IMG/VR virus record: IMGVR_UViG_3300035665_000232
Coordinates: 1-24,395 of that record
Strand: one strand, 5' to 3'
Source: a virus
Length of the DNA: 24,395 nucleotides
Shown here: piece by piece, positions 440-20,636 of the stretch
Layout: each line of letters begins with the position of its first letter
How positions within the stretch are numbered: the stretch's first letter is position 1
The notes under the pieces: model-generated
What the model saw: the letters and a program-made list of their open reading frames with translations, nothing else
Databases searched by the model: none
Told to the model about the DNA's origin: nothing
Program-made: the position numbers and the translations under genes

Positions 440-1243
440 TTACGTCATGCAGTAACCAGACTCGCAGCCATCCTGCTCGTCGATCCATTCAGGGAACAGC
501 CCAAGTTGATCGGGAATTGCAGCGGCCAGCGGTTGCCCACGTCTTGCGCCAACTCCTGACATGAAAACCCGATCCTTGCCGATCGCCTTGCGCCTGGCGT
601 TGAGCTGATCCTCCAGCCCCGCAGCGCTGGCGAACAGCTCGGGCCGCTCGCGGCGCATCGTGATCCACTGATCGGTGGTCTTGTAGGGGCAGAACCAGCA
701 GCTGGACTTTGGCGGCTGCGGCAGCCCAGCTTCGGCCACTATCCGCAGGCAGTCTTGGCGGCTGTAGCCCAGCTCAATCAGTGGGTAGGCACTGCTGTAG
801 CAGTCGGACTCGCGGCTGGGCGTAGCGCGGTGCGGCTCATCCGTGCTGATGCCCTTTCCTGGCACGCAGCCCGGCGCGTTGGCCTTAATCCATCTGGCAA
901 TGGGCTTAATTTTGAACTCAACTGTGCAGTTGCGATTGCCTGGCGAGCCGTTAGCCATCCGCACAGGAATGTTGATCGCACGCAAGGGCCGACGCAGATC
1001 GTCGTATAGATCAACTGGCGTGCCATCGCGTCGGCGACGCTGGATCTCCACCCACTCAATCCCGTGCCGTGCCGCGCAAGGCTTGAGTACTTCTGCGACG
1101 TAGGCGATGGTGCGGGGATCTTCGGCTTTGTCGCCGACGTTGGCGAAGATGAAGGTGCGATAAGGGATGACGCCCTGAGCCGCCAGTGCTAGGCATGCCG
1201 TGGATTGCACTCCGCCGCCGCAGCTGAATACATGGTCGGTCAT
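440..1243 (-). CDS. PP-loop ATPase, PAPS-reductase-like phage enzyme
   Basis: The 267-residue protein has an N-terminal PP-loop, SCGGGVQST at residues 7-15, which binds ATP in adenine-nucleotide alpha-hydrolases such as PAPS reductases, tRNA thiolation enzymes and DndC. A Cys at 106 (NRNCTVEFK) is followed by KPIARWI. The block YPLIELGYSRQDC (153-165) leads into SSCWFCPY with a CxxC at 182/185, an arrangement typical of phage proteins annotated as PAPS reductase/FAD synthetase. The cysteines could hold a metal or carry sulfur. The real substrate in phages is unknown: activation of a nucleotide or sulfate, or base/tRNA/DNA thio-modification, are all possible. ATG at 1243 lies 3 bases after the upstream gene's TAG, so it belongs to the operon. 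A role in sulfate assimilation as such is unlikely, because no partner genes are visible. Confidence 0.85.
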   Translation of the reverse strand: MTDHVFSCGGGVQSTACLALAAQGVIPYRTFIFANVGDKAEDPRTIAYVAEVLKPCAARHGIEWVEIQRRRRDGTPVDLYDDLRRPLRAINIPVRMANGSPGNRNCTVEFKIKPIARWIKANAPGCVPGKGISTDEPHRATPSRESDCYSSAYPLIELGYSRQDCLRIVAEAGLPQPPKSSCWFCPYKTTDQWITMRRERPELFASAAGLEDQLNARRKAIGKDRVFMSGVGARRGQPLAAAIPDQLGLFPEWIDEQDGCESGYCMT

Positions 1244-6162: not shown

Positions 6163-6252
6163 GGTCGTAGCGAGTGGTGAACGCCCCCACACCATACCGG
6201 ATCGGTTCCCCTTTCGCACCCTATGATGGGGGCAAATCGTCACACTCGATCC
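6163..6252. promoter_or_regulatory. Divergent promoter region between sigma gene and minus operon
   Basis: Ninety bases separate the ATG of the leftward operon (6162) from the GTG I prefer for the sigma gene (6253). On the plus strand TATGAT (6222-6227) is followed by GGGGGC and, 15 bases after the hexamer, CACTCG (6243-6248), 4 bases before GTG. On the minus strand TATGGT (6193-6198) is followed by GTGGGGGC and, 14 bases after the hexamer, CACTCGC (6176-6170), 7 bases before ATG. So both directions share TATGRT, a G-run near the expected transcription start, and the start-associated CACTCG. Neither has a good TTGACA-type -35. The similarity is direct; promoter function is inferred. Confidence 0.6.
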
Positions 6253-7314
6253 GTGCCGGCCAGCAGCAACCAGTCCTGGTGGCTCGACTCGATCGGGCGC
6301 ATCCCCCTGCTCTCCCCAGCCGAGGAAATCGAACTCGGCACGGCAATCCAGCGGTGGCAGACCCATCCCGACCCGTGCCCGCCAGGCATCCGGCGCCGGG
6401 GCATGCGGGCGCGGGATCGGTTCGTATCGGCGAATCTGCGGCTGGTGGTCGCCTACATCTCCAAGCGCTGCCACCGGCTGGCCAAGTCCTACGGGGTCGA
6501 GGATCTGACCCAAGCCGGGAATATGGGCCTGATCACCGCCGCTGAGCGGTTCGATCCGGCGAAGGGCTACCGATTCTCCACCTACGCCTATTGGTGGATA
6601 CGGCAGGCCATCAACCGCTGGGTTGATCAGCACGGCCGCGCCATCGCCATCCCCGGCAGCCACTGCCAGCACCTGGCGAAGCTGGACGCCATCACCCGGC
6701 GGCTGGAACGGGAGCTGAACCGATCGCCTACGCAGGCGGAGATCGCCGCAGAGCTGGGCGTGTCGCTGCGGGTGCTGGAGCAGGTGATTGAAAACGGCCG
6801 GCCGGTGGCCTCGCTGGATCAGGTCGTGACGGACGACGGGCTGGAGCTGGGCAGCCTGTGCGCCACCTACGACCGCACACCAGAGGATGAAGAGGAACAG
6901 CGCGAACGGTGGCGGCAGGCGGAGCAGCTGCGGGGCCTGATCGCCAGGCTGGCGCCGCAGGATCGCAGGTTGCTGTCCCTGGCCTGGGGCCTCGACGGGG
7001 TGGAGATCCCCCGGGGCGAGCTGGCCCAGCAGGAGGGGCTTTCGACACGGGCGCTTGAGGTGCGGCTTGCACGGCTGCAGGCGTCGCTGGCGTCGCAGTC
7101 GGTGCAGTTGGTTTTGGTGGCGGTGGAACGGGGGACGGTGGAGCCGAGGGATCGGAGCAGGCGGAAACGCGAGCGGCCTGATCAGCTGGTGCTGGTGCCG
7201 GTCGAAAGGGCGAAGCCCGCATCCCCGGCGCTGCGCAGGGTTGGGGGATTCCCTCGGAACTGGGTCAGGCTGAGCGAGCGGCTGCGGGTCGCTGCTGCTG
7301 GGGGGAGCTGGTGA
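6253..7314 (+). CDS. Sigma-70 family RNA polymerase sigma factor, phage-borne
   Basis: A sigma factor of group 2/primary-like type. With GTG 6253 the product is 353 residues; ATG 6223 would add 10 residues, but the first ATG lies inside the TATGAT -10-like sequence, so I prefer the GTG. Region 1.2 is WWLDSIGRIPLLSPAEEIEL (8-28). Region 2 runs from RDRFVSANLRLVV through VEDLTQAGNMGL to FSTYAYWWIRQAI (about 54-120), with the -10-reading helix intact. Region 3 has LNRSPTQAEIAAELGVSL (155-172). Region 4 has LAPQDRRLLSLAWGLDG (243-249 on), but the -35-reading helix is EGLSTRALEVRLARLQASL, lacking the usual RERVRQIE. A basic C-terminal extension of about 70 residues holds a repeated QLVLV-VER motif (285-294, 311-320). 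It probably redirects host polymerase to phage promoters. Confidence 0.9.
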   Translation: MPASSNQSWWLDSIGRIPLLSPAEEIELGTAIQRWQTHPDPCPPGIRRRGMRARDRFVSANLRLVVAYISKRCHRLAKSYGVEDLTQAGNMGLITAAERFDPAKGYRFSTYAYWWIRQAINRWVDQHGRAIAIPGSHCQHLAKLDAITRRLERELNRSPTQAEIAAELGVSLRVLEQVIENGRPVASLDQVVTDDGLELGSLCATYDRTPEDEEEQRERWRQAEQLRGLIARLAPQDRRLLSLAWGLDGVEIPRGELAQQEGLSTRALEVRLARLQASLASQSVQLVLVAVERGTVEPRDRSRRKRERPDQLVLVPVERAKPASPALRRVGGFPRNWVRLSERLRVAAAGGSW

Positions 7315-7327
7315 TAGAACTGGCCGC

Positions 7328-7528
7328 ATGAAAGCATCAGAACTGCGAAAGCTAAAGGGCAGGCAAGTTCAGGCTCGCAGGCTGAGCAGGCATTACATCT
7401 ATGAACCGCGCACGGTCACAGTGCTGGATGTCCGAGGCAGGAACGTCTTGATCGACGACGGCGGCATGACTGACTGGCTTTGGATCCCTGATTACAGGTT
7501 CACGCCACCGCCGTCGCCTGAAGAGTGA
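7328..7528 (+). CDS. Small hypothetical protein downstream of sigma gene
   Basis: 66 residues, ATG 7328, 13 bases after the sigma stop, so probably co-transcribed with it. The N-terminus is strongly basic (KASELRKLKGRQVQARRLSR); the rest reads as beta-strands, RTVTVLDVRGRNVLIDDGG, then DWLWIPDYRF, and a Pro-rich tail. The layout suggests a small barrel with a basic arm, possibly nucleic-acid binding or an RNA-polymerase/sigma accessory factor. That is inference from position and charge only. A hairpin follows directly after its TGA. Confidence 0.65.
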   Translation: MKASELRKLKGRQVQARRLSRHYIYEPRTVTVLDVRGRNVLIDDGGMTDWLWIPDYRFTPPPSPEE

Positions 7529-7564
7529 CCCGCCTGTTTGGGCATCGCTGAGATGCCTGGCGGG
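7529..7564. terminator. Hairpin between convergent ends, possible bidirectional terminator
   Basis: Directly after the stop of the plus-strand gene, GGCATC (7541-7546) pairs with GATGCC (7552-7557) around a 5-base loop. The outer CCCGCC (7529-7534) pairs with GGCGGG (7559-7564), with an asymmetric internal loop. The next minus-strand gene ends at 7581, so the hairpin sits between two convergent ends. Neither side has a good T-run, so it may act as a Rho-independent terminator only weakly, or protect 3' ends. Confidence 0.5.
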
Positions 7565-7580
7565 TGTTGCTGGTGGCAGG

Positions 7581-7757
7581 TTAGTCGCCTGTCTTGATCA
7601 CTTCGCAGTTCACCTCCATCCCGATCACCCGTCCCGCCAGCCACATCAGCGCCGTGGCCAGCCAAAGCCGAGCTTAGAACCCGCCGGGTGTGTGCATCCG
7701 AACGGTCAAGGTGGTGTTCCGCACGGCGTCAGCGGTGTTCACGGTGTAAGCGGCCAT
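7581..7757 (-). pseudogene. Small phage gene interrupted by in-frame TAA
   Basis: ATG 7757 opens 27 codons (AAYTVNTADAVRNTT ... MHTPGGF), then TAA at 7676-7674. The same frame then continues for 30 codons (ARLWLATALMWLAGRVIGME ... IKTGD) to TAA 7583-7581. The second half is a basic-hydrophobic helix, and the join 'HTPGGF-x-ARLWLA' reads like one continuous small protein with an N-terminal strand pair and a C-terminal membrane helix. A single change (for example AAA to TAA) would explain the stop. Alternatives are a separate downstream ORF from the ATG in ALMWLAG, a sequencing error, or stop-codon readthrough. The leader before ATG has a degenerate form of the CACTCGC motif (CGTTCGC). Confidence 0.5.
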
Positions 7758-7819
7758 GGTGGTAAGCGAACGATGGGCTAGGCGTGCGGATCAGGGCCTG
7801 GGCTCTGTCGTTTGCAGCC

Positions 7820-7847
7820 TACAGAAAGCCCGGCGCTGGGGCCGGGC
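7820..7847 (-). terminator. Intrinsic terminator after the 7871-8104 gene
   Basis: Read on the minus strand, GCCCGGC (7847-7841), loop CCCAGC, GCCGGGC (7834-7828), a perfect 7-base-pair stem, then TTTCTGT. It lies 24 bases downstream of the stop of the 7871-8104 gene and fits a Rho-independent terminator with a short, impure T-tract. It would isolate that gene from the interrupted gene that follows. The remaining leader (7758-7819) shows no clear promoter to me. Confidence 0.6.
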
Positions 7848-7870
7848 GGGTGGTTGGCGGTGGCGGGGCA

Positions 7871-8104
7871 TCAGCCGAGGTGAGCGTGAGCCATGGGCCG
7901 TGGTGCTATCACGCTAGAGGTGCAGATGACCTTGGGAGCTGCGCGGTTGATTTGGTAGCCGTCTTCCTCAAAGAGGTTGACGTAGAAGCGGCCATTCGGG
8001 CGCTCATCGATGGTGAAGTAGCTGCCAGGCTCGTCGGCCACGTAGTCAGTGCCGAAGGCCTGAGCATCAGTCAGGGTGCGGAAGTCAAACTCAAGGTCGG
8101 TCAT
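7871..8104 (-). CDS. Hypothetical 77-residue protein
   Basis: I set the start at ATG 8104, preceded by CACTCGC and 5 bases; a longer frame opens at 8206 but that stretch is the promoter-leader. The product is acidic and looks like a small beta-sheet domain: LEFDFRTLTDAQAFGTDYV, PGSYFTIDERPNGRFYVNLF, EEDGYQINRA. This is a typical pattern of phage proteins that mimic small host domains. No family is recognised. It has its own promoter-like site and terminator, so it is probably a single-gene unit. Confidence 0.7.
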   Translation of the reverse strand: MTDLEFDFRTLTDAQAFGTDYVADEPGSYFTIDERPNGRFYVNLFEEDGYQINRAAPKVICTSSVIAPRPMAHAHLG

Positions 8105-8175
8105 GGCTGGCGAGTGGCGGTGAAGGTGTTTCCCTCCGATGCCCATACTGTAACCCGTGGGGCACACCCTGGCAA
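8105..8175 (-). promoter_or_regulatory. Sigma-70-like promoter and leader
   Basis: On the minus strand TTGCCA (8175-8170) is followed after exactly 17 bases by TACAGT (8152-8147), then ATGGGCATCGGAGGGAAA and a short leader ending CACTCGC-CAGCC-ATG. A nearly identical site lies at 10574-10546 (TTGTCA, 17 bases, TACAGT) with the same spacer. The duplication and perfect spacing support a promoter. Transcription would start close to the GGGCATCGG, giving a leader of about 35-40 bases. Overlap with the end of the upstream gene (8193) is avoided by 17 bases. Confidence 0.6.
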
Positions 8176-8192
8176 CCACCAGGGCGGACGGT

Positions 8193-8402
8193 TTACAGAT
8201 CGTCACGTTTTCGCTGCCTCGCCACCCTCTCTCGGTTCCACTCCTTGCCCTCTGGCGACTGCTTCCAGCACTGGGAGCACAGCGGCGCGGTGCGGGTGCT
8301 GATCACGCTCCGGCCGCACTGGGGGCAGGTGGGGAGGGCGGGGATGTCCCCCGCCAGGCGGAGGCGATGGCGGGCGATTTTGTCGGCGGGGGTTAGGGGC
8401 AT
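8193..8402 (-). CDS. Small zinc-ribbon protein
   Basis: 69 residues, ATG 8402 sharing a base with the upstream TAA (TAATG). Contains CPQC (residues 26-29) and CSQC (42-45) spaced by 12 residues, a short zinc ribbon, flanked by a basic helix (TPADKIARHRLRLAGD) and a basic tail (WNRERVARQRKRDDL). The charge and ribbon suggest nucleic-acid binding. It forms a two-gene unit with the 8402-8617 gene. Zinc ribbons of this size are common in phage transcription or recombination accessory proteins; the role here is unknown. Confidence 0.7.
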   Translation of the reverse strand: MPLTPADKIARHRLRLAGDIPALPTCPQCGRSVISTRTAPLCSQCWKQSPEGKEWNRERVARQRKRDDL

Positions 8403-8617
8403 TAGTCCCCACCCTGAATCGCATCGGCCAGCGCCAGGAGCTGGGCACGGTGGCGGGCCGTGGTGGGGCGGGTGGCGTCACGGGACGGATCGCCCAGCAC
8501 CACCTCCACGGCGGCGCGGATGGCGAGGGCATGCGATGGCAGGATCAGGCCATAGCCGGCACGCTCCATCGCATCAGCAAACGCTGCGCGGAGCTCGGCG
8601 CGGGTGGGGATGGTCAT
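8402..8617 (-). CDS. Hypothetical helical protein
   Basis: 71 residues, ATG 8617, 10 bases after CACTCGC. Almost entirely helical: TRAELRAAFADAMERAGY, SHALAIRAAVEVVLGD, TARHRAQLLALADAIQGG. It begins MTIPTRAEL, and several neighbours (8674-9039, 7871-8104, 10156-10437) likewise begin ATGACC. Its stop overlaps the start of the zinc-ribbon gene. No family is recognised. Confidence 0.65.
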   Translation of the reverse strand: MTIPTRAELRAAFADAMERAGYGLILPSHALAIRAAVEVVLGDPSRDATRPTTARHRAQLLALADAIQGGD

Positions 8618-8673
8618 GGTTGTGGTGGCGAGTGAATGACTGCCGGATAGGCTCCGGCGGGCCGTGGGGTGGG
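8618..8673 (-). repeat. Start-associated repeat, copy 1 (hairpin plus CACTCGC)
   Basis: The complete gap between the stop of the 8674 gene and the ATG at 8617. In minus orientation it holds ACCCACCCCACGGCCC, the hairpin GCCGGA-GCCTA-TCCGGC (8658-8642) and CACTCGC (8634-8628), then 10 bases to the ATG. Three further copies of the same arrangement lie at 9040-9115, 9485-9536 and 10101-10155. There is no T-run after the hairpin, so it is not an ordinary terminator. Confidence 0.75.
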
Positions 8674-9039
8674 TTAGTAATCCTTTCGCATTGACGCCAC
8701 AAAGGCGTCGGCCATGCGCTCTGATAGCTTTTCTGTATCAGCCGCTAATACCTTATCGGCAGTATTTCTAAGAAGTTGCTGGAGCCTAGCCTTTATGCTT
8801 TCATCTTCTTGCACCAAGCGCACAGCTTGCTCTTGTGCAACACGTTGGACAGCATTCTCAAATGCTAGCTGCAAGGGAGACCTGCCACGGTCATAGCTAT
8901 TAGTGCTAGGCGCAAGAACGGCCTGAATGGCTTTGTCCAGTAGCTCACGCTGGGCTTCAGGAGTGAGCTGGCCAATAATGGACTGAGCAATGGCTTCGCG
9001 CAGAGCGTCACTTTCAAGCTGGAGAGTGAGGCTGGTCAT
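8674..9039 (-). CDS. Hypothetical helical protein, lower GC than neighbours
   Basis: 121 residues from ATG 9039, which directly follows the repeat leader. The composition is helix-forming throughout: LQLESDALREAIAQSIIGQL, PEAQRELLDKAIQAVLA, LQLAFENAVQRVAQEQA, RLQQLLRNTADKVLA, KLSERMADAFVASMRKDY. It has no Cys, TM or recognised motif, and probably oligomerises through helices. The codon third positions include more A/T (cta, gca, aaa, ata) than the flanking genes, hinting that this gene was acquired separately. Function unknown. Confidence 0.7.
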   Translation of the reverse strand: MTSLTLQLESDALREAIAQSIIGQLTPEAQRELLDKAIQAVLAPSTNSYDRGRSPLQLAFENAVQRVAQEQAVRLVQEDESIKARLQQLLRNTADKVLAADTEKLSERMADAFVASMRKDY

Positions 9040-14731: not shown

Positions 14732-14911
14732 TCAGTCTGCGGAGGCCTTGCTCATCGCACACTCCTCTATCGCCTTGATCAGCCCAGGGTCGTAGCTGTG
14801 CGATGCGTAGGGGTCTGTGTTCATGCTGAGCAGCCACTGATACAACTCACACGCCAGCACCCGATCATCAGTGGTGGCAGGGATGTAGGCAGGATCGGAG
14901 GGGAGAGTCAT
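14732..14911 (-). CDS. Small hypothetical protein after the fibre gene
   Basis: Hand translation gives 59 residues, ATG 14911 sharing a base with the fibre gene's TGA (TGATG), stop at 14734-14732. Sequence features: TLPSDPAYIPATTDDRVL, CELYQWLLSMNTDPYASHSYD, PGLIKAIEECAMSKASAD. Two Cys, no TM, no recognised motif. Similar short proteins with a 'WLLSMNTD-Y' helix may be tail-fibre chaperones in other phages, but this is speculation from position only. Confidence 0.65.
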   Translation of the reverse strand: MTLPSDPAYIPATTDDRVLACELYQWLLSMNTDPYASHSYDPGLIKAIEECAMSKASAD

Positions 14912-17900
14912 CAGAGTACAACGTTAGGGGTGATGTTGAAGCCATGTTCGGGGCTGATCCCCCGCACGTAGGACCTCAGCGCCATGTTCAGGAAGAACGT
15001 GCCATTTGCCTGATCCAGAGCGGCGGCGGTGATCACGGGGTTGTATTCCTTGCCGGTGCCGCCGACCGGGTTTGGTGCGCCGAAGGTGGCAGAGCTAGGG
15101 ACGTACTTAGGCAGGATCTGCGTGGTCTGATTGATTGCCAGTCCTGCCACCTTGAAGATACTTAATGCGGTGTTGTCAGGAGCTCCGCTGCCCAACCTGG
15201 AATCAGCGGCAAGAAACACTGTTGCGCCGCGCTCCTGATCTACCAGGCCCTCATTGCCCAGCAGCACGCCACGGGTCTTGACGGAGTTGTAGCCATTGGA
15301 GCCAAACCGGCCGACAAAGCCCTGCGACACGTTGCCGGTTGACGAACCAGAGAATCCAGTTAAGAACGACTCGCGGACGGTCAGGCTCCGTTTTGCATGG
15401 ATGAACTGATCCAGGAAGGGTCCCGAATCATTGTCGGCAGGCTCGGCGCCTGCACTGGTGAGCAGGTGAATGTGGTTCGCCAGATAGCGCGTATCAGTTG
15501 AGTTCCGGTACCAGCTGCGATCGGCTGTCCCCTGGAGGTAACTGACCCTGCCGCCCATCTGATCAATCACCACGGGCTCATCGGTGATCGATGAAAGGAA
15601 CGTGTGATGGAACTGCCGCCAGGTCCAAGGAGTGGCAACAGATGCGGAGCCGTAGTGCGCGTCACCAGACAGCGGCACGGCATTGGTCACGCCAGCACCG
15701 GCACTGGTGACAGTGGCGCTTCCGCGCAGGTAGATGTTGCTCCACCGCAGCTGCACAAGGCCGTTGGTGGCGATGTACGGGGCACGGGTGGCGCCTAGTG
15801 ATTCCTTGTGCGATGGCAGCGCCGGGCCGAACATGATCCCGCGCAGGTCCGCCACGTCCGTGCTGTTGCCCTCCAGCTGCAGCACCGGTGTGGTGGTCCA
15901 GCTGTCGTAGGACGGGTTGCGGCCATTGCTGATCCTCAGCCGATTCAGGAACGTGTCAACGTTTGTAGTGGTGTTGGTGGTGAATGCACCACTGGGGAGC
16001 GCGACGCTGCCGGAGATGAATTGTGCGGCGGTGATCGCGCCATCGGACACCAGCTTGATCAGCTCGGGCACCCCTAGGAAGTGGAACCCGCCACGGAAGT
16101 CCACGCTACGCTGGCAGCGCATCTGCCGGCCGATAGTGTTCACGTGCAGCTGATTCCCGGCGCTTGCGTTGTCGCGCAGCAGCAGCGTGAATGCCCGGAA
16201 GCTCACCCGCGTGGTGAGGTTGCCGTAGCCCGAGCCGTCAAACCAGGTCTCAGCGGTGGCTGGGTCGCCGGTCTCGGTGAAGATCAGCGGCCAGCCGGCC
16301 TGGGTCGGATCGCTGGCCCTGAACACCACGCTGCACTGCCACACTGACGCCGGGTCGTAGAGCCCCGGCGCGATCCTGATTTCTGCGGTCTGGTTGCCCG
16401 AGCCGATCACAGCATTCGCGTACTCCGCCGCCCGCGCCAGGGTCGGGATCGGATTGGCCGGCGCGGTTGGCGGGCTGTCGAACATCTGATCGAGCGTCCG
16501 GTCTGCCGCCGTGGATTGCACGTAGATCGTGATCGTGCCGGTGGCAGCGCTGATCAGCCGTTGCGCCTGCCGCCAGCGGTTCAGGCCGCCGATCGTCACC
16601 ACCTCCGGGGCGCCCTCCAGCGCTGCATCAGAACTGGCGACCGTGCCAGGCAGTTCGGTCAGCTGGGCGATGCTGGCCAGCTCCACCGCGCCAGCCCTGG
16701 TGGTCTTCGCCTGTGCTTGGCTGCCGAACTCGGCGGTGCCGGTGATCACCACGTCCTGCAGCTGGGCCGTGCTGCCCACCTGGATGCCGTTCGGAAAGTC
16801 CGTCCTTTGCGCCTCGTCCAGCGTCTGGCCGCCGAGTGATTCAGGGCTGATGGTGGCCCCCGTGGCGATGTCTTCGAGGCCCTTGGGTGTCACCTCGAAG
16901 CCGTCTTCGTTGCTGCCCTTGGGCACCACCCGGCCGCCAGCTGCGGAAGTGAAGTAGTAGGTGAACTTGTTGAACTCCGACATATCGCCCTGCACCGCAG
17001 GCATGGCCCTGGAGTAGTTGCCAAAACCGGCCCACTCCCACTGGTGGTTGTAGAGCCTGATCGTCGAAGGCCGCCGAAACTCCACCGCCCAATTCCCCAG
17101 CCCCGTCGCAGCACCACCAGATGGCGCCGTGGGGAAGTCTGTTGCGCTGCTGGGGTCGCGGTCACGACTGCCGGCAGCTTGCGGCACTAGAGCGGCGTGG
17201 GCTGCGGCGTCGGCGAACCCCAGCGCCCGCAGGAAGGCGTACCCGCCCAGGTAGTCCGTGGCGGTGCGATACTGATCTCGCACAGGGCCAGCGCTGGTCC
17301 AGATCGTGGTCCAGTTGATACCCAGGGTGGTTGAATCGTCAACGTCGCTGGTGTCGGTGTCGAGCACCAGGATGGGCGCCTCTTGGCTGATCGAATCCTC
17401 AGGGTTGAAGTCCGAGGGCATGTGAACGAACGTCTCGCCCCAGAACGCCGGATCGGGCGATGCACCGGAGCTGGTGAATGTGCGCGTGGCCTGCCAGTGT
17501 TTGCCGGCGTGTTTTACCACCGTTCCCTGGCGGTAGTACGTGCCTGATGCGTAGGTTTTCGACGCGGCGCCACGGCGGATGGTGATTTCACCGGTTCGCA
17601 GTACACCCGAGCCAGGCAGTGGCCCGGTGCCAGATGCGGTCACCAGCAGCACTTCCTCTCCGCCGCCGGCCAGTACACGGCCAATCGCGCCGTTGCTGCG
17701 AGCCGGGTCGGTCTGGAGCGCTGCATTTCGCTGCGGCAGTCTGGCGCTCGCCGTGTTGTTGAGGATTAGGCTGCAGCGCCGCTCGGCCACAGTGCGGGTG
17801 TCCACTACGCGGCGGATGTAGACCCGGCGGCCCACCACGTCATTACCCGGCGCTTCATTAGTGCCCGACTGCAGCGGGGCGGCGGTGATGCCGATCGATG

Positions 17901-19560
17901 CCGGCGCAGAACTGCTCCAGGCGCTGCTGCTCAGCGTGGCCCGCCAGTCAGCGCCAGCAGGGTTATCGATCCAGATCCTGGTGCCCGAGGCGAACGAATA
18001 ACCCAGAGCCTGCAGCGCTGCAGGGTTGGTGGCGCTGCTCGGGTCGATTGCCAGGCCGTTGGTTAGGGTAATTGTCGAGCTGCTTACGGCAGCTACCACG
18101 CCCAGTTCGACGCGGCGGATGTTGGAGGTTTTCTCGCTGAGGTTCAGCGGCACCCGCACCCGGCCGATCGCCCAGTTCTTGTCCTTGTTGAAGGCGAAGC
18201 CCTTGTAACCCTTCGCCAGGGCAGAGCAGCCGCCGAAGGTTGAATTGCCGCCGTTGTCGGTGATCTCCCCGCCGGAGTCCACCATCGTCACTTCAGACTG
18301 GCCAATCCCGAAGATCGAAACCTTCTGGATGTACGCATTGTTGATCGCCGAGATGTGCCGGGTTTGGCGTGCAGGATCACGGCGCAAGTTGTCGGGCGCT
18401 GCATCGATGTATGCCTGATAGCCCTCCGTAGTGTTGGCCAGGTTTACCCAGTTTCCGCCTTGATACACCTGCCAGCAGCGCATATCCTTCTGCTGGTTGG
18501 TGCCGGTGAAGTTGGCGCACACCATGCTGCGCAGTCCGCTCAGCTTGTTGCCATCCCAGAACGCCCCGCCCATGCCGTGGTCGGAGCGGACCGACACGTT
18601 GAAGATGTACGAGCTGGCGCCCCTGGTGGTGTCCCACTGCGAGCTGGGCGCCTGGCTCTGATCGATCGGGCCGACGATCTCGTGCTCACTGGGCCGGGCC
18701 GTTAGCAAGGCGCTCGCCAGGTCGGCGCCAGTGCCAACGGCAGATTGGATCTTGGCGTAGAACGTGTCGAGCTCTGCCTTGCTGGCGGGATGGAACACGT
18801 CCAGCAGGTGGACAGATTCGGTATGCCCGATCTTGTCCATGGCCGTGAAGTCAAAGAAGAATCCCGTGCCGGAAATCTTCGAGATAGCCCGCCGGTTGCT
18901 GTAGTCCGCGGCCTCATCCGCCACCGCCGGCACCCAGTTCGGGCGGATGGTGGTCTTGCGCAGATCCAGCCCGCGCATTGAGCATCCACGGGGCAACAGC
19001 GCGCCGCCAGTGGAGGGGTTGAACGCGATCAGCTCGGCCGGGGTCGGGTCCTTTGCCGTGCCCCAGCTCGCCAGGCTGGTGGAGCCGCTGCCGGGGTCGT
19101 TCAGAACGATGTGGACGCCACCGCTCAGCACGATGGTCACGCAGTCCACGTGAGCGCGTGGGTCTGAATAGGTGTACCAGTTCTTGCTGGTGATGATCGC
19201 CGCTTCGATTGCGGCGCGGTTGATTGTCTTGAACGGCCGCGCCGAGGTGTAGCCGCACTCCAGGCGCTGCAGCTCGATTCGCCTCAGCTTCTGCGCGATT
19301 ACCTCTTCGTCGGTTGCGCCGGCTTCGTGGCTGTTGTAGGCGCCGCCAACGAACCGGTCAGAGCCGATGTACGGATCAACGTAGAGGGTGAACGGTGCAT
19401 TCAGGGGGTCAGCAACCGCAAGCGCACCCGCCACCACCCGGGCATTACCGCCCAGCTGGCGGAGCATGTCGATCAGGACGGCGATCTGATCCTTTGCATC
19501 CGCCTGGCTGGCAGCCACGTCAAGGGCGCCGCTTTGCCCTGCCCGCTGCAGCTGGCTCAT
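14911..19560 (-). CDS. Giant tail fibre / receptor-binding protein
   Basis: 1549 residues, ATG 19560, 32 bases after the previous stop. N-terminal helix (residues about 10-45), then YVDPYIGSD and ECGYTSARPFKTINRAAIEA (about 100-119), a signature I associate with cyanophage and cyanobacterial structural proteins that fold into parallel beta-helices. Residues 95-480 carry Gly/Asn-rich repeats (GGEITDNGGNSTFGGCSALA, near NKDKNWAIGRVRVPLN). Around 945-995 are tail-fibre type repeats (KTTRAGAVELASIAQLTELP). From about 1010 a second beta-helix-like part (PTLARAAEYANAVIGSG, IRIAPGLYDPASVW) leads to the C-terminus at VVL. The C-terminus follows the tail genes and precedes lysis, the classic place for a receptor-binding fibre. 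Exact domain edges are estimates. Confidence 0.82.
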   Translation of the reverse strand: MSQLQRAGQSGALDVAASQADAKDQIAVLIDMLRQLGGNARVVAGALAVADPLNAPFTLYVDPYIGSDRFVGGAYNSHEAGATDEEVIAQKLRRIELQRLECGYTSARPFKTINRAAIEAAIITSKNWYTYSDPRAHVDCVTIVLSGGVHIVLNDPGSGSTSLASWGTAKDPTPAELIAFNPSTGGALLPRGCSMRGLDLRKTTIRPNWVPAVADEAADYSNRRAISKISGTGFFFDFTAMDKIGHTESVHLLDVFHPASKAELDTFYAKIQSAVGTGADLASALLTARPSEHEIVGPIDQSQAPSSQWDTTRGASSYIFNVSVRSDHGMGGAFWDGNKLSGLRSMVCANFTGTNQQKDMRCWQVYQGGNWVNLANTTEGYQAYIDAAPDNLRRDPARQTRHISAINNAYIQKVSIFGIGQSEVTMVDSGGEITDNGGNSTFGGCSALAKGYKGFAFNKDKNWAIGRVRVPLNLSEKTSNIRRVELGVVAAVSSSTITLTNGLAIDPSSATNPAALQALGYSFASGTRIWIDNPAGADWRATLSSSAWSSSAPASIGITAAPLQSGTNEAPGNDVVGRRVYIRRVVDTRTVAERRCSLILNNTASARLPQRNAALQTDPARSNGAIGRVLAGGGEEVLLVTASGTGPLPGSGVLRTGEITIRRGAASKTYASGTYYRQGTVVKHAGKHWQATRTFTSSGASPDPAFWGETFVHMPSDFNPEDSISQEAPILVLDTDTSDVDDSTTLGINWTTIWTSAGPVRDQYRTATDYLGGYAFLRALGFADAAAHAALVPQAAGSRDRDPSSATDFPTAPSGGAATGLGNWAVEFRRPSTIRLYNHQWEWAGFGNYSRAMPAVQGDMSEFNKFTYYFTSAAGGRVVPKGSNEDGFEVTPKGLEDIATGATISPESLGGQTLDEAQRTDFPNGIQVGSTAQLQDVVITGTAEFGSQAQAKTTRAGAVELASIAQLTELPGTVASSDAALEGAPEVVTIGGLNRWRQAQRLISAATGTITIYVQSTAADRTLDQMFDSPPTAPANPIPTLARAAEYANAVIGSGNQTAEIRIAPGLYDPASVWQCSVVFRASDPTQAGWPLIFTETGDPATAETWFDGSGYGNLTTRVSFRAFTLLLRDNASAGNQLHVNTIGRQMRCQRSVDFRGGFHFLGVPELIKLVSDGAITAAQFISGSVALPSGAFTTNTTTNVDTFLNRLRISNGRNPSYDSWTTTPVLQLEGNSTDVADLRGIMFGPALPSHKESLGATRAPYIATNGLVQLRWSNIYLRGSATVTSAGAGVTNAVPLSGDAHYGSASVATPWTWRQFHHTFLSSITDEPVVIDQMGGRVSYLQGTADRSWYRNSTDTRYLANHIHLLTSAGAEPADNDSGPFLDQFIHAKRSLTVRESFLTGFSGSSTGNVSQGFVGRFGSNGYNSVKTRGVLLGNEGLVDQERGATVFLAADSRLGSGAPDNTALSIFKVAGLAINQTTQILPKYVPSSATFGAPNPVGGTGKEYNPVITAAALDQANGTFFLNMALRSYVRGISPEHGFNITPNVVL

Positions 19561-19592
19561 CTGGTTACGCCGGCTCGATTCCTGCCCTCAGG

Positions 19593-20636
19593 CTATGGAG
19601 CCTCCTTTGCCAGCCTGATCTGGCCGGTCGCCACGAACTGCGCCGAGATCAGGATCACATCGGTGGCGCTGGTGTTCACTGCCGTCTTGCCCAGCAGGAT
19701 GTCGGTTTCGTAGAAGATCCGCTCTCGCACGTGGGTGGCCACGTTGCTGTTGCGCTGGTCCACCAGCTGGAACCGCGCTCGGGCCTTGCTTCCCTGGCTG
19801 GTGAGCAACATTAGCCGGAGCATTCCTAGGCCGCTCTGCTCCCCTACTACGCGGCTGTGATCCATCTCCCCGTTGAACGATCCAGCGCCGCGCAAGGCAC
19901 CCTTGGCGTACTCACCGAACGCCTGGCCGATTGCTTCCTGGTCCAACTGGGCCGCGTCCATCTCGAACACCCACCCAGTCAGATCGCACTGCATCAGCCA
20001 GCCGCGCTCTTCCGCGTCCGCTGCCGTGTCGCTCAAGACCTGCGGCACCGGTGCCAGGTTCTGAGCCGGTTGCTCACCATCGGGGATCTCCAGGTCCTCG
20101 ATGGCCTGCAGCAGAGCCAGCGCTGCGGCCACGTAGCCGGAGCGGCTAGAGGCCGGCAGGATCAGCATTGGGCCAGGGCTCACGTTGCGCAGCGGGATTA
20201 GGCCCTGGCTGCCGCCATTGATCGCGTCGAGCTCGGTGGAGTAGAACCGCACGTCGTCCATCTCATCGCGGTGGATGTAGGCCGTGGCGGTCTGCTGAAA
20301 CCCGACCGTTGCCGCTGACTCCCAGAACGCTGCCGATGAATTGGCGCTCCAAAATGCGCCTCCGGCAGTCCGTGCTGCCAGCGCAGGGCCCACGGCGGTC
20401 TGCCCGCCAGTCCAGAACGCATGGCCATCGGGGCATGGCGCAAAGCCGCTCGTGCCGATGCCCAGTGGCACGCCGCGCAGCCCCACCAGCAGCACCTCAT
20501 CGCCCGACTGAAACGCCAGGTCGGTCAGGTCCAGTGACGGCGAGGTGCCGCGCTGCAGCCGCTGATCGGCTAACGCCGTGGGGGCTGGCCATTCGCGGCT
20601 GAGTTGAACAATTCCCTTGCGGCCTTCGACAGCCAT
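19593..20636 (-). CDS. Phage tail protein with tail-tube-like C-terminal region
   Basis: 347 residues, ATG 20636 sharing a base with the previous TAA (TAATG). The first part is beta-rich (LQRGTSPSLDLTDLAF, GDEVLLVGLRGVPL). The middle has a run of small aromatic/Gly segments (GHAFWTGGQTAVGPAL, GGAFWSANSSAAFWES). The C-terminal third (DAAQLDQEAIGQAFGEYAKG, GAGSFNGEMDHS, GLGMLRLMLLTSQGSKARAR) matches the pattern of phage tail-tube domains, which I recall from cyanobacterial siphophages. Likely a structural component of the tail or its tip. The domain assignment is from pattern only; the sequence of two tail-tube-like genes in a row is notable. Confidence 0.6.
   Translation of the reverse strand: MAVEGRKGIVQLSREWPAPTALADQRLQRGTSPSLDLTDLAFQSGDEVLLVGLRGVPLGIGTSGFAPCPDGHAFWTGGQTAVGPALAARTAGGAFWSANSSAAFWESAATVGFQQTATAYIHRDEMDDVRFYSTELDAINGGSQGLIPLRNVSPGPMLILPASSRSGYVAAALALLQAIEDLEIPDGEQPAQNLAPVPQVLSDTAADAEERGWLMQCDLTGWVFEMDAAQLDQEAIGQAFGEYAKGALRGAGSFNGEMDHSRVVGEQSGLGMLRLMLLTSQGSKARARFQLVDQRNSNVATHVRERIFYETDILLGKTAVNTSATDVILISAQFVATGQIRLAKEAP

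Follow-up and report, generated by a model that had tools for sequence, protein, structure and literature searches.

A siphovirus sigma factor with an altered −35 helix, candidate −10-only late promoters and clamp-binding-like tail motifs

Phage sigma factors and the gene in the window

In phage T4, clamp-binding motifs lie on divergent linkers at the C-termini of both gp55 and gp33, and the late promoters are devoid of a −35 element (PMC2988020, PMC7892883). Clamp-activated transcription has been described as unique to T4-related phages (PMC2988020). Among cyanophages, the sigma factors of P-SS2 and KBS-S-2A have been described (PMC2784084 and PMC3751600, respectively), those of S-CBS1 and S-CBS3 are annotated as group 2, and the S-LBS1 paper mentions an rpoD-like gene (PMC6157547). 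The S-LBS1 sigma (SLBS1_A33) is annotated only as cyanobacterial RpoD-like, and the passages on it propose no mechanism (PMC6157547). With sigmas in these five phages, a cyanosiphovirus that has such a gene is no novelty, and the statement of the original prediction, made from the letters of the present DNA, that a group 2-like sigma is unusual in a siphophage of cyanobacteria is not supported.

The DNA analysed here, called the window, is a stretch of 24,395 bases from a virus record and gave no megablast match to known phages. On its plus strand, the open reading frame at 6253..7314 encodes a sigma-70 family protein of 353 amino acids, as seen with Pfam, PHROG, tblastn and AlphaFold2. A Pfam search for the sigma-70 regions found, above cut-off, region 1.2 (residues 11-35, 6283..6357; PF00140, E 4.9e-8), region 2 (residues 58-129, 6424..6639; PF04542, E 1.2e-17) and region 3 (residues 141-212, 6673..6888; PF04539, E 6.4e-13), all on the plus strand, and no match to Sigma70_r4. 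Region 2, which recognizes the −10 element, reads FSTYAYWWIRQAI and is undamaged, as had been predicted; its FSTY and WW are invariant in the family, and −10 recognition is probably retained. PHROG 351 (phage RNA polymerase sigma factor) matches the protein with an E value of 5.7e-52, and it also matches five further proteins of the phage group called clade A below and the KBS-S-2A sigma. The claim of a phage-borne sigma factor is supported. According to AlphaFold2, regions 1.2 to 4 are mostly confident helices, and a Foldseek search of the PDB matches the predicted structure to full-length housekeeping sigmas, with a sigma fold. Translation most likely starts at the GTG at 6253, since relatives have the same GTG; the in-frame ATG at 6223 was rejected as a start because it belongs to a conserved TATGAT box (6222-6227). 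The gene runs against the late genes, as originally stated, and the same holds for S-LBS1, S-CBS1 and KBS-S-2A.

In tblastn searches of phage records, the S-LBS1 sigma is 77% identical to the window protein over residues 5-293. It shares with it the orientation opposite to the late genes, a two-motif tail and a late box in the genome, but it is 36 residues shorter and does not have the extra C-terminal extension. The sigmas of S-CBS1, S-CBS3, KBS-S-2A and others are about 30-35% identical. Those of the three named phages are likewise encoded close to where the early and late modules meet, but they have a canonical −35 helix and their phages have no TCCRTAGCCTGA boxes; only KBS-S-2A among them has a clamp-like C-terminus (QLPLI).

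A single close relative (57%) was found in a search of 84,980 species genomes of bacteria and archaea; the remaining matches are sigmas of about 40% identity, plus one short match of 46%. A host chromosomal gene was rejected as an explanation, the only close relative lying on a short, 5.6 kb MAG contig, and no copy with conserved synteny was seen in phage-free cyanobacteria among these genomes. A quick, midpoint-rooted tree, built without the tails and with several weak deep branches, separates a set of phage sigmas that includes the window protein from the host sigmas and from other phage sigmas. This clade A consists of 36 dereplicated rows, with a support of 99 for a core of 24 rows and less certain outer members. 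The use of three distant sigmas as extra queries in the viral scans widened the family and added few new sub-lineages.

Region 4 and a candidate late promoter

In E. coli, the residues R584, E585, R588 and Q589 contact the −35 element. Region 4 of the window protein (residues 226-282, 6928..7098, plus strand) is degenerate: it is negative in Pfam, and of the helices predicted by AlphaFold2 (235-245, 254-261 and 265-282) the last does not have the canonical contact residues in the residue table. Residues 261-279 read EGLSTRALEVRLARLQASL, as had been claimed in the original prediction. Within clade A (n = 36), R584 is kept in 2/36, E585 in 1/36, R588 in 2/36 and Q589 in 2/36 proteins, whereas ten host sigmas keep them in 10/10, 7/10, 10/10 and 7/10 cases, respectively; most phage sigmas outside clade A have the canonical residues as well. 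As the four residues are nearly all replaced, the altered helix is, by this comparison, a trait of the whole clade A family. The Pfam profile points in the same direction: of six scanned clade A proteins, five (window, L039, L166, L174 and L171) have no region 4 match or one that stays below cut-off, and the sixth (L050) barely passes, against its detection in KBS-S-2A, S-CBS1 and one host sigma. Furthermore, the −35 helix of the window family is somewhat relaxed (pN/pS 0.40-0.47) when compared with regions 1.2-2 (0.28-0.31). Canonical −35 recognition has probably been lost in the window sigma, which supports the earlier idea of a protein that reads normal −10 but not normal −35 sites.

Because the region 4 profile is unmatched and the −35 contact residues are lost, the window protein is a member of the sigma-70 family but not a standard group 2 sigma. 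It could still be imagined as an ordinary host-derived group 2 sigma that acts at standard host-like promoters and has an unimportant tail. Among NCBIfam models, the cyanobacterial RpoD-like TIGR02997 comes nearest to it, though the score of 182.9 bits stays far below the cut-off of 384.5, and the group 2 sigma of P-SS2 has been interpreted as a reader of canonical promoters (PMC2784084). The lost −35 residues, a tail motif that is more constrained than region 2 and a phage-specific late motif make such a role improbable.

In L039, two sigma genes lie in tandem on the plus strand (7115-7993 and 8001-8948), the first with a canonical −35 helix and the second a clade A sigma that ends in EQLSLFAA; the sequence upstream of this pair is also present in L041.

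Comparison of the regions upstream of the terminase and other late genes gave CCATAGCCTGA. This box was first noticed by eye and tested afterwards, with hold-out loci and a leave-one-genome-out scan as safeguards. All 33 occurrences of CATAGCCTG in 19 contigs of core clade A are on the strand of the virion genes (33:0), and 25 distinct contexts yield the consensus TCCATAGCCTGA-N4-A, with 1.6-2.35 bits per box position. In its general form, TCCRTAGCCTGA-N4-A, the candidate late promoter is a −10-like box. It is not accompanied by a recognisable −35 box, since no position from −50 to −5 exceeds 0.4 bits in these 25 contexts. The best-conserved positions of bacterial −10 boxes are T at −12, A at −11 and T at −7; if TAGCCT is taken as the hexamer, all three fit and the conserved A falls at +1.

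The leave-one-genome-out matrix scan found 63 sites on the late strand and 7 on the other, many of them homologous to each other, and as sites and proteins are kin, p-values overstate their independence. With R allowed at its fourth position, the motif, written as CRTAGCCTGA, occurs 45:0 on the late strand in clade A contigs and 17:0 in 36 further clade A loci that were not used in finding the motif. Its restriction to clade A is apparent from a single copy in 354 kb around other phage sigmas, one in 1.16 Mb of host DNA and none in S-CBS1, S-CBS3 and KBS-S-2A. It counts against the late-promoter reading that contigs G002, G022 and G024 are without exact copies. The window has one exact copy, found by sequence comparison at 19588..19599 on the minus strand (TAGCCT at 19595-19590, predicted +1 near 19583), 27 nt upstream of the gene for a 1549-aa tail fibre protein (14911..19560, minus strand; phrog_529, E 2.9e-68). 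In eight contigs from several sub-lineages, the capsid genes begin directly after the box or a close variant of it, and these contigs include those with sigmas ending in QLALF, QPTLPL and QLVLPL. With the start codon directly behind the box, the capsid messages are probably leaderless. The box is absent before the homologous capsid genes of S-CBS1 and S-CBS3.

Strand-exclusive short motifs can also serve other purposes, and TCCRTAGCCTGA might be a signal for RNA processing or translation, or an operator, unrelated to the sigma; some copies lie within annotated genes, for example at the capsid gene start of S-LBS1. The spacing of T-12, A-11 and T-7 with an A at +1, the position directly before capsid start codons and the absence from phages with canonical sigmas argue for a promoter and leave the other functions a slim chance. 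The combination, family-wide, of a sigma without −35 residues and late boxes without a −35 element is strong circumstantial evidence that the sigma reads these promoters. Taken by itself, the role of a sigma factor that reads −10-only late promoters is likely.

In S-LBS1 (MG271909, 4621-4690), the box falls inside the beginning of the major capsid gene as annotated, and the true capsid start may therefore be further downstream.

The C-terminal tail and a possible link to the host sliding clamp

Beyond region 4, the window protein continues into a basic tail of 71 residues (283-353, 7099..7311, plus strand) with a net charge of +9. The tail has no counterpart in host sigmas, which stop shortly beyond region 4 and whose final 40 residues contain no Q-L-x-L. 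It is predicted to be disordered, with AlphaFold2 pLDDT values below 50 at residues 290-297 and 303-334. The description first given of this extension, about 70 basic residues with two repeats 26 residues apart, is accurate: QLVLVAVERG stands at 285-294 and QLVLVPVERA at 311-320, at a spacing of exactly 26. A beta-hairpin formed by the two QLVLV repeats was considered and rejected, as AlphaFold2 shows no strands and low confidence there. Motif 1 (QLVLVA, residues 285-290, 7105..7122, plus strand) is under strong purifying selection (pN/pS 0.09-0.25), even more constrained than region 2, whereas the linker between the motifs is nearly neutral (0.72-0.80); motif 2 (QLVLVP, residues 311-316, 7183..7200, plus strand) keeps its Q-L-x-L in the core alignment. 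Since motif 1 is strongly constrained while the adjoining linker is nearly neutral, the pattern goes beyond chance, and this is the behaviour of short linear motifs on flexible linkers.

By the published definition, a bacterial beta-clamp-binding motif reads Q-phi-x-[L/M]-[F/L] or Q-phi-x-[L/M]-x-[F/L] (PMC11139829). This strict definition, on which the argument rests, applies to 11/36 clade A tails versus 0.9 in shuffled tails. The pattern Q[LM]x[LF] occurs in 31/36 tails versus 1.4 in shuffled ones, and in two copies in 21/36 versus 0.02. A loose clamp pattern used in some of the counts was partly set after the tails had been inspected. Exact clamp motifs in sister tails are QLSLF, QLELF, QLTLL, QLNLL, QLALF, QLVLPL and QLCLF; the position homologous to window motif 1 is occupied by QLELF in L086 and QLVLL in L042, and that of motif 2 by QLSLF, QLTLL and QLNLL in sisters. 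The motifs of the window deviate at position 5/6, with V for the expected F or L, and miss the strict definition; judged by homology, they appear to be the same element as the clamp motifs of the sisters. Within the final 12 residues, 7/59 viral sigmas have the strict motif, compared with 11/1362 of the other genes on these contigs (Fisher 3e-6, a significance inflated by kinship). The dependence on an extra factor that had been suggested seems well placed, given that the repeats are similar to motifs that bind sliding clamps and that no −35 element accompanies the candidate late promoters.

A phage-encoded clamp was rejected as the partner, none being found in the clade A records searched. 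The host DnaE retains a QGNLF motif, and the host DnaN ends in TYLVMPVQIR; DnaE served as the control for clamp motifs because the C-terminus of the host Y-family polymerase, tried for this purpose, has no clear motif. Since the clade A phages searched are without a clamp gene and the host replicase keeps QGNLF, the partner of the tail, if any, would be the host DnaN, and the presence of two tail motifs would match the two pockets of a dimeric clamp. A DnaN domain is absent from 30 of the 31 phage records searched; the exception, L191 (the record of L181), belongs to the KBS-S-2A-like sigma group outside clade A and itself encodes a DnaN-like clamp (PF00712, E 2.7e-18).

The promoter and −35 evidence requires no clamp, the window motifs miss the strict consensus and their linker is basic, where the flanks of known clamp ligands are mostly acidic (PMC11139829). 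All this would also suit a late sigma whose tail motifs bind core polymerase, a phage co-activator or an anti-sigma, or whose tail is a basic DNA-binding arm. The textbook clamp motifs of the sisters (QLSLF, QLELF, QLALF, QLVLPL and QLCLF), homologous or C-terminal, and the enrichment of strict motifs over other genes of the same phages make a clamp-free late sigma rather unlikely. Twort gp168 is one of the known phage proteins directed at the bacterial clamp (cited in PMC11139829), and the tail might bind DnaN in order to block or redirect host replication, separately from any sigma role. It would be strange for such an activity to be fused to a sigma, and the motif is kept across many lineages on sigmas in which promoter recognition has changed as well, which renders this very improbable.

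Our preferred reading is that the window gene encodes the late sigma of an S-LBS1-like siphovirus of picocyanobacteria, acting at −10-only promoters and tethered to the host clamp, with a probability of roughly 0.5. Early on, the host polymerase would transcribe the sigma gene, using a promoter of the TATGAT type. The phage sigma would then bind the host core polymerase via its conserved region 2 and direct it to the late promoters TCCRTAGCCTGA-N4-A, where the −10 box would be read alone because region 4 no longer has the −35-reading residues. The flexible tail with its two Q-L-x-L motifs may tether the holoenzyme to host DnaN on replicating phage DNA. Such tethering would compensate for the absent −35 contact and couple late transcription to replication, reminiscent of T4 gp55/gp33/gp45. 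The clamp part is weaker than the promoter part and stands at about even odds; it is suggested by the motif identity in relatives, the T4 analogy and the need to replace the −35 contact. In the KBS-S-2A clade, clamp-like C-termini coexist with a canonical −35 helix and no TCCRTAGCCTGA box, and therefore a clamp-like tail, −35 loss and the promoter box need not go together. The association of −35 loss with the tails is not statistically independent either, because both may be a single event within clade A.

With the T4 system, the window system would share a late sigma, promoters without −35 and a clamp-binding-type peptide on a flexible C-terminal linker, clamp binding being predicted for the window. 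However, T4 gp55 is a sigma domain 2 only, with no recognisable regions 3 and 4, while the window protein keeps regions 1.2, 2 and 3 (the last by Pfam) plus a degenerate region 4 (by predicted fold) in one polypeptide. Its motif is of the bacterial beta-clamp type, the −10 box differs and no phage clamp gene was found. The window sigma thus seems to be analogous to gp55 in its proposed working and is not a gp55 family member. It is tempting, if somewhat short of an even bet, to regard it as part of a separately evolved second replication-coupled late transcription system, in which a complete sigma-70-type protein of cyanobacterial siphoviruses has given up −35 recognition and engages host DnaN via paired tail motifs at −10-only, often leaderless promoters. 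In the literature searched, which covers few subscription papers, no link between a sigma factor and the bacterial clamp was found, and this novelty is provisional. If true, this would be an independent case of clamp-activated transcription, in which one sigma polypeptide works with a bacterial clamp, and would show how a sigma can do without a −35 element. The proposed late box would also provide an easy sequence marker for the timing of genes in widespread uncultured freshwater cyanophages, of which S-LBS1 is a cultured member.

Clamp-like ends are present on other genes of clade A or related phages too, for example on a 502-aa protein ending in QLGLFVV and on others ending in GQLALL and QLNLLSVA; these phages may use the host clamp more widely.

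The element upstream of the sigma gene and neighbouring genes

The sigma gene is preceded by a conserved promoter/operator element (6193..6244, plus strand), delineated by alignment of 27 upstream regions and nhmmer, in which the TATGAT at 6222-6227 is −10-like. Within it lies an asymmetric element some 30 nt long, in which approximate TACC, GTTCC and GCACC blocks stand at intervals of 11 nt, followed by TATRAT. The same element recurs before the primase-polymerase gene and in several other places per genome (contigs L200-L222), and at least one copy overlies the end of an opposite-strand gene. A role as late promoter was rejected on the basis of its recurrence before the primase-polymerase gene with TATRAT-like boxes, and in other orientations too; it is probably an early promoter with operator sites. 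Beside the primase-polymerase gene of S-LBS1 (MG271909, 34240-34641) there are many copies of CTGCCTAACCT and AGGTTGGGCAG, like the iterons of replication origins.

Immediately 3' of the sigma gene, the window has a 66-aa open reading frame (7328-7528, plus strand) that is conserved only in L012 (95%) and L011 (53%). A phosphoadenosine phosphosulfate reductase-like gene (440-1243, minus strand; phrog_424, E 4.6e-35) is a possible auxiliary metabolic gene.
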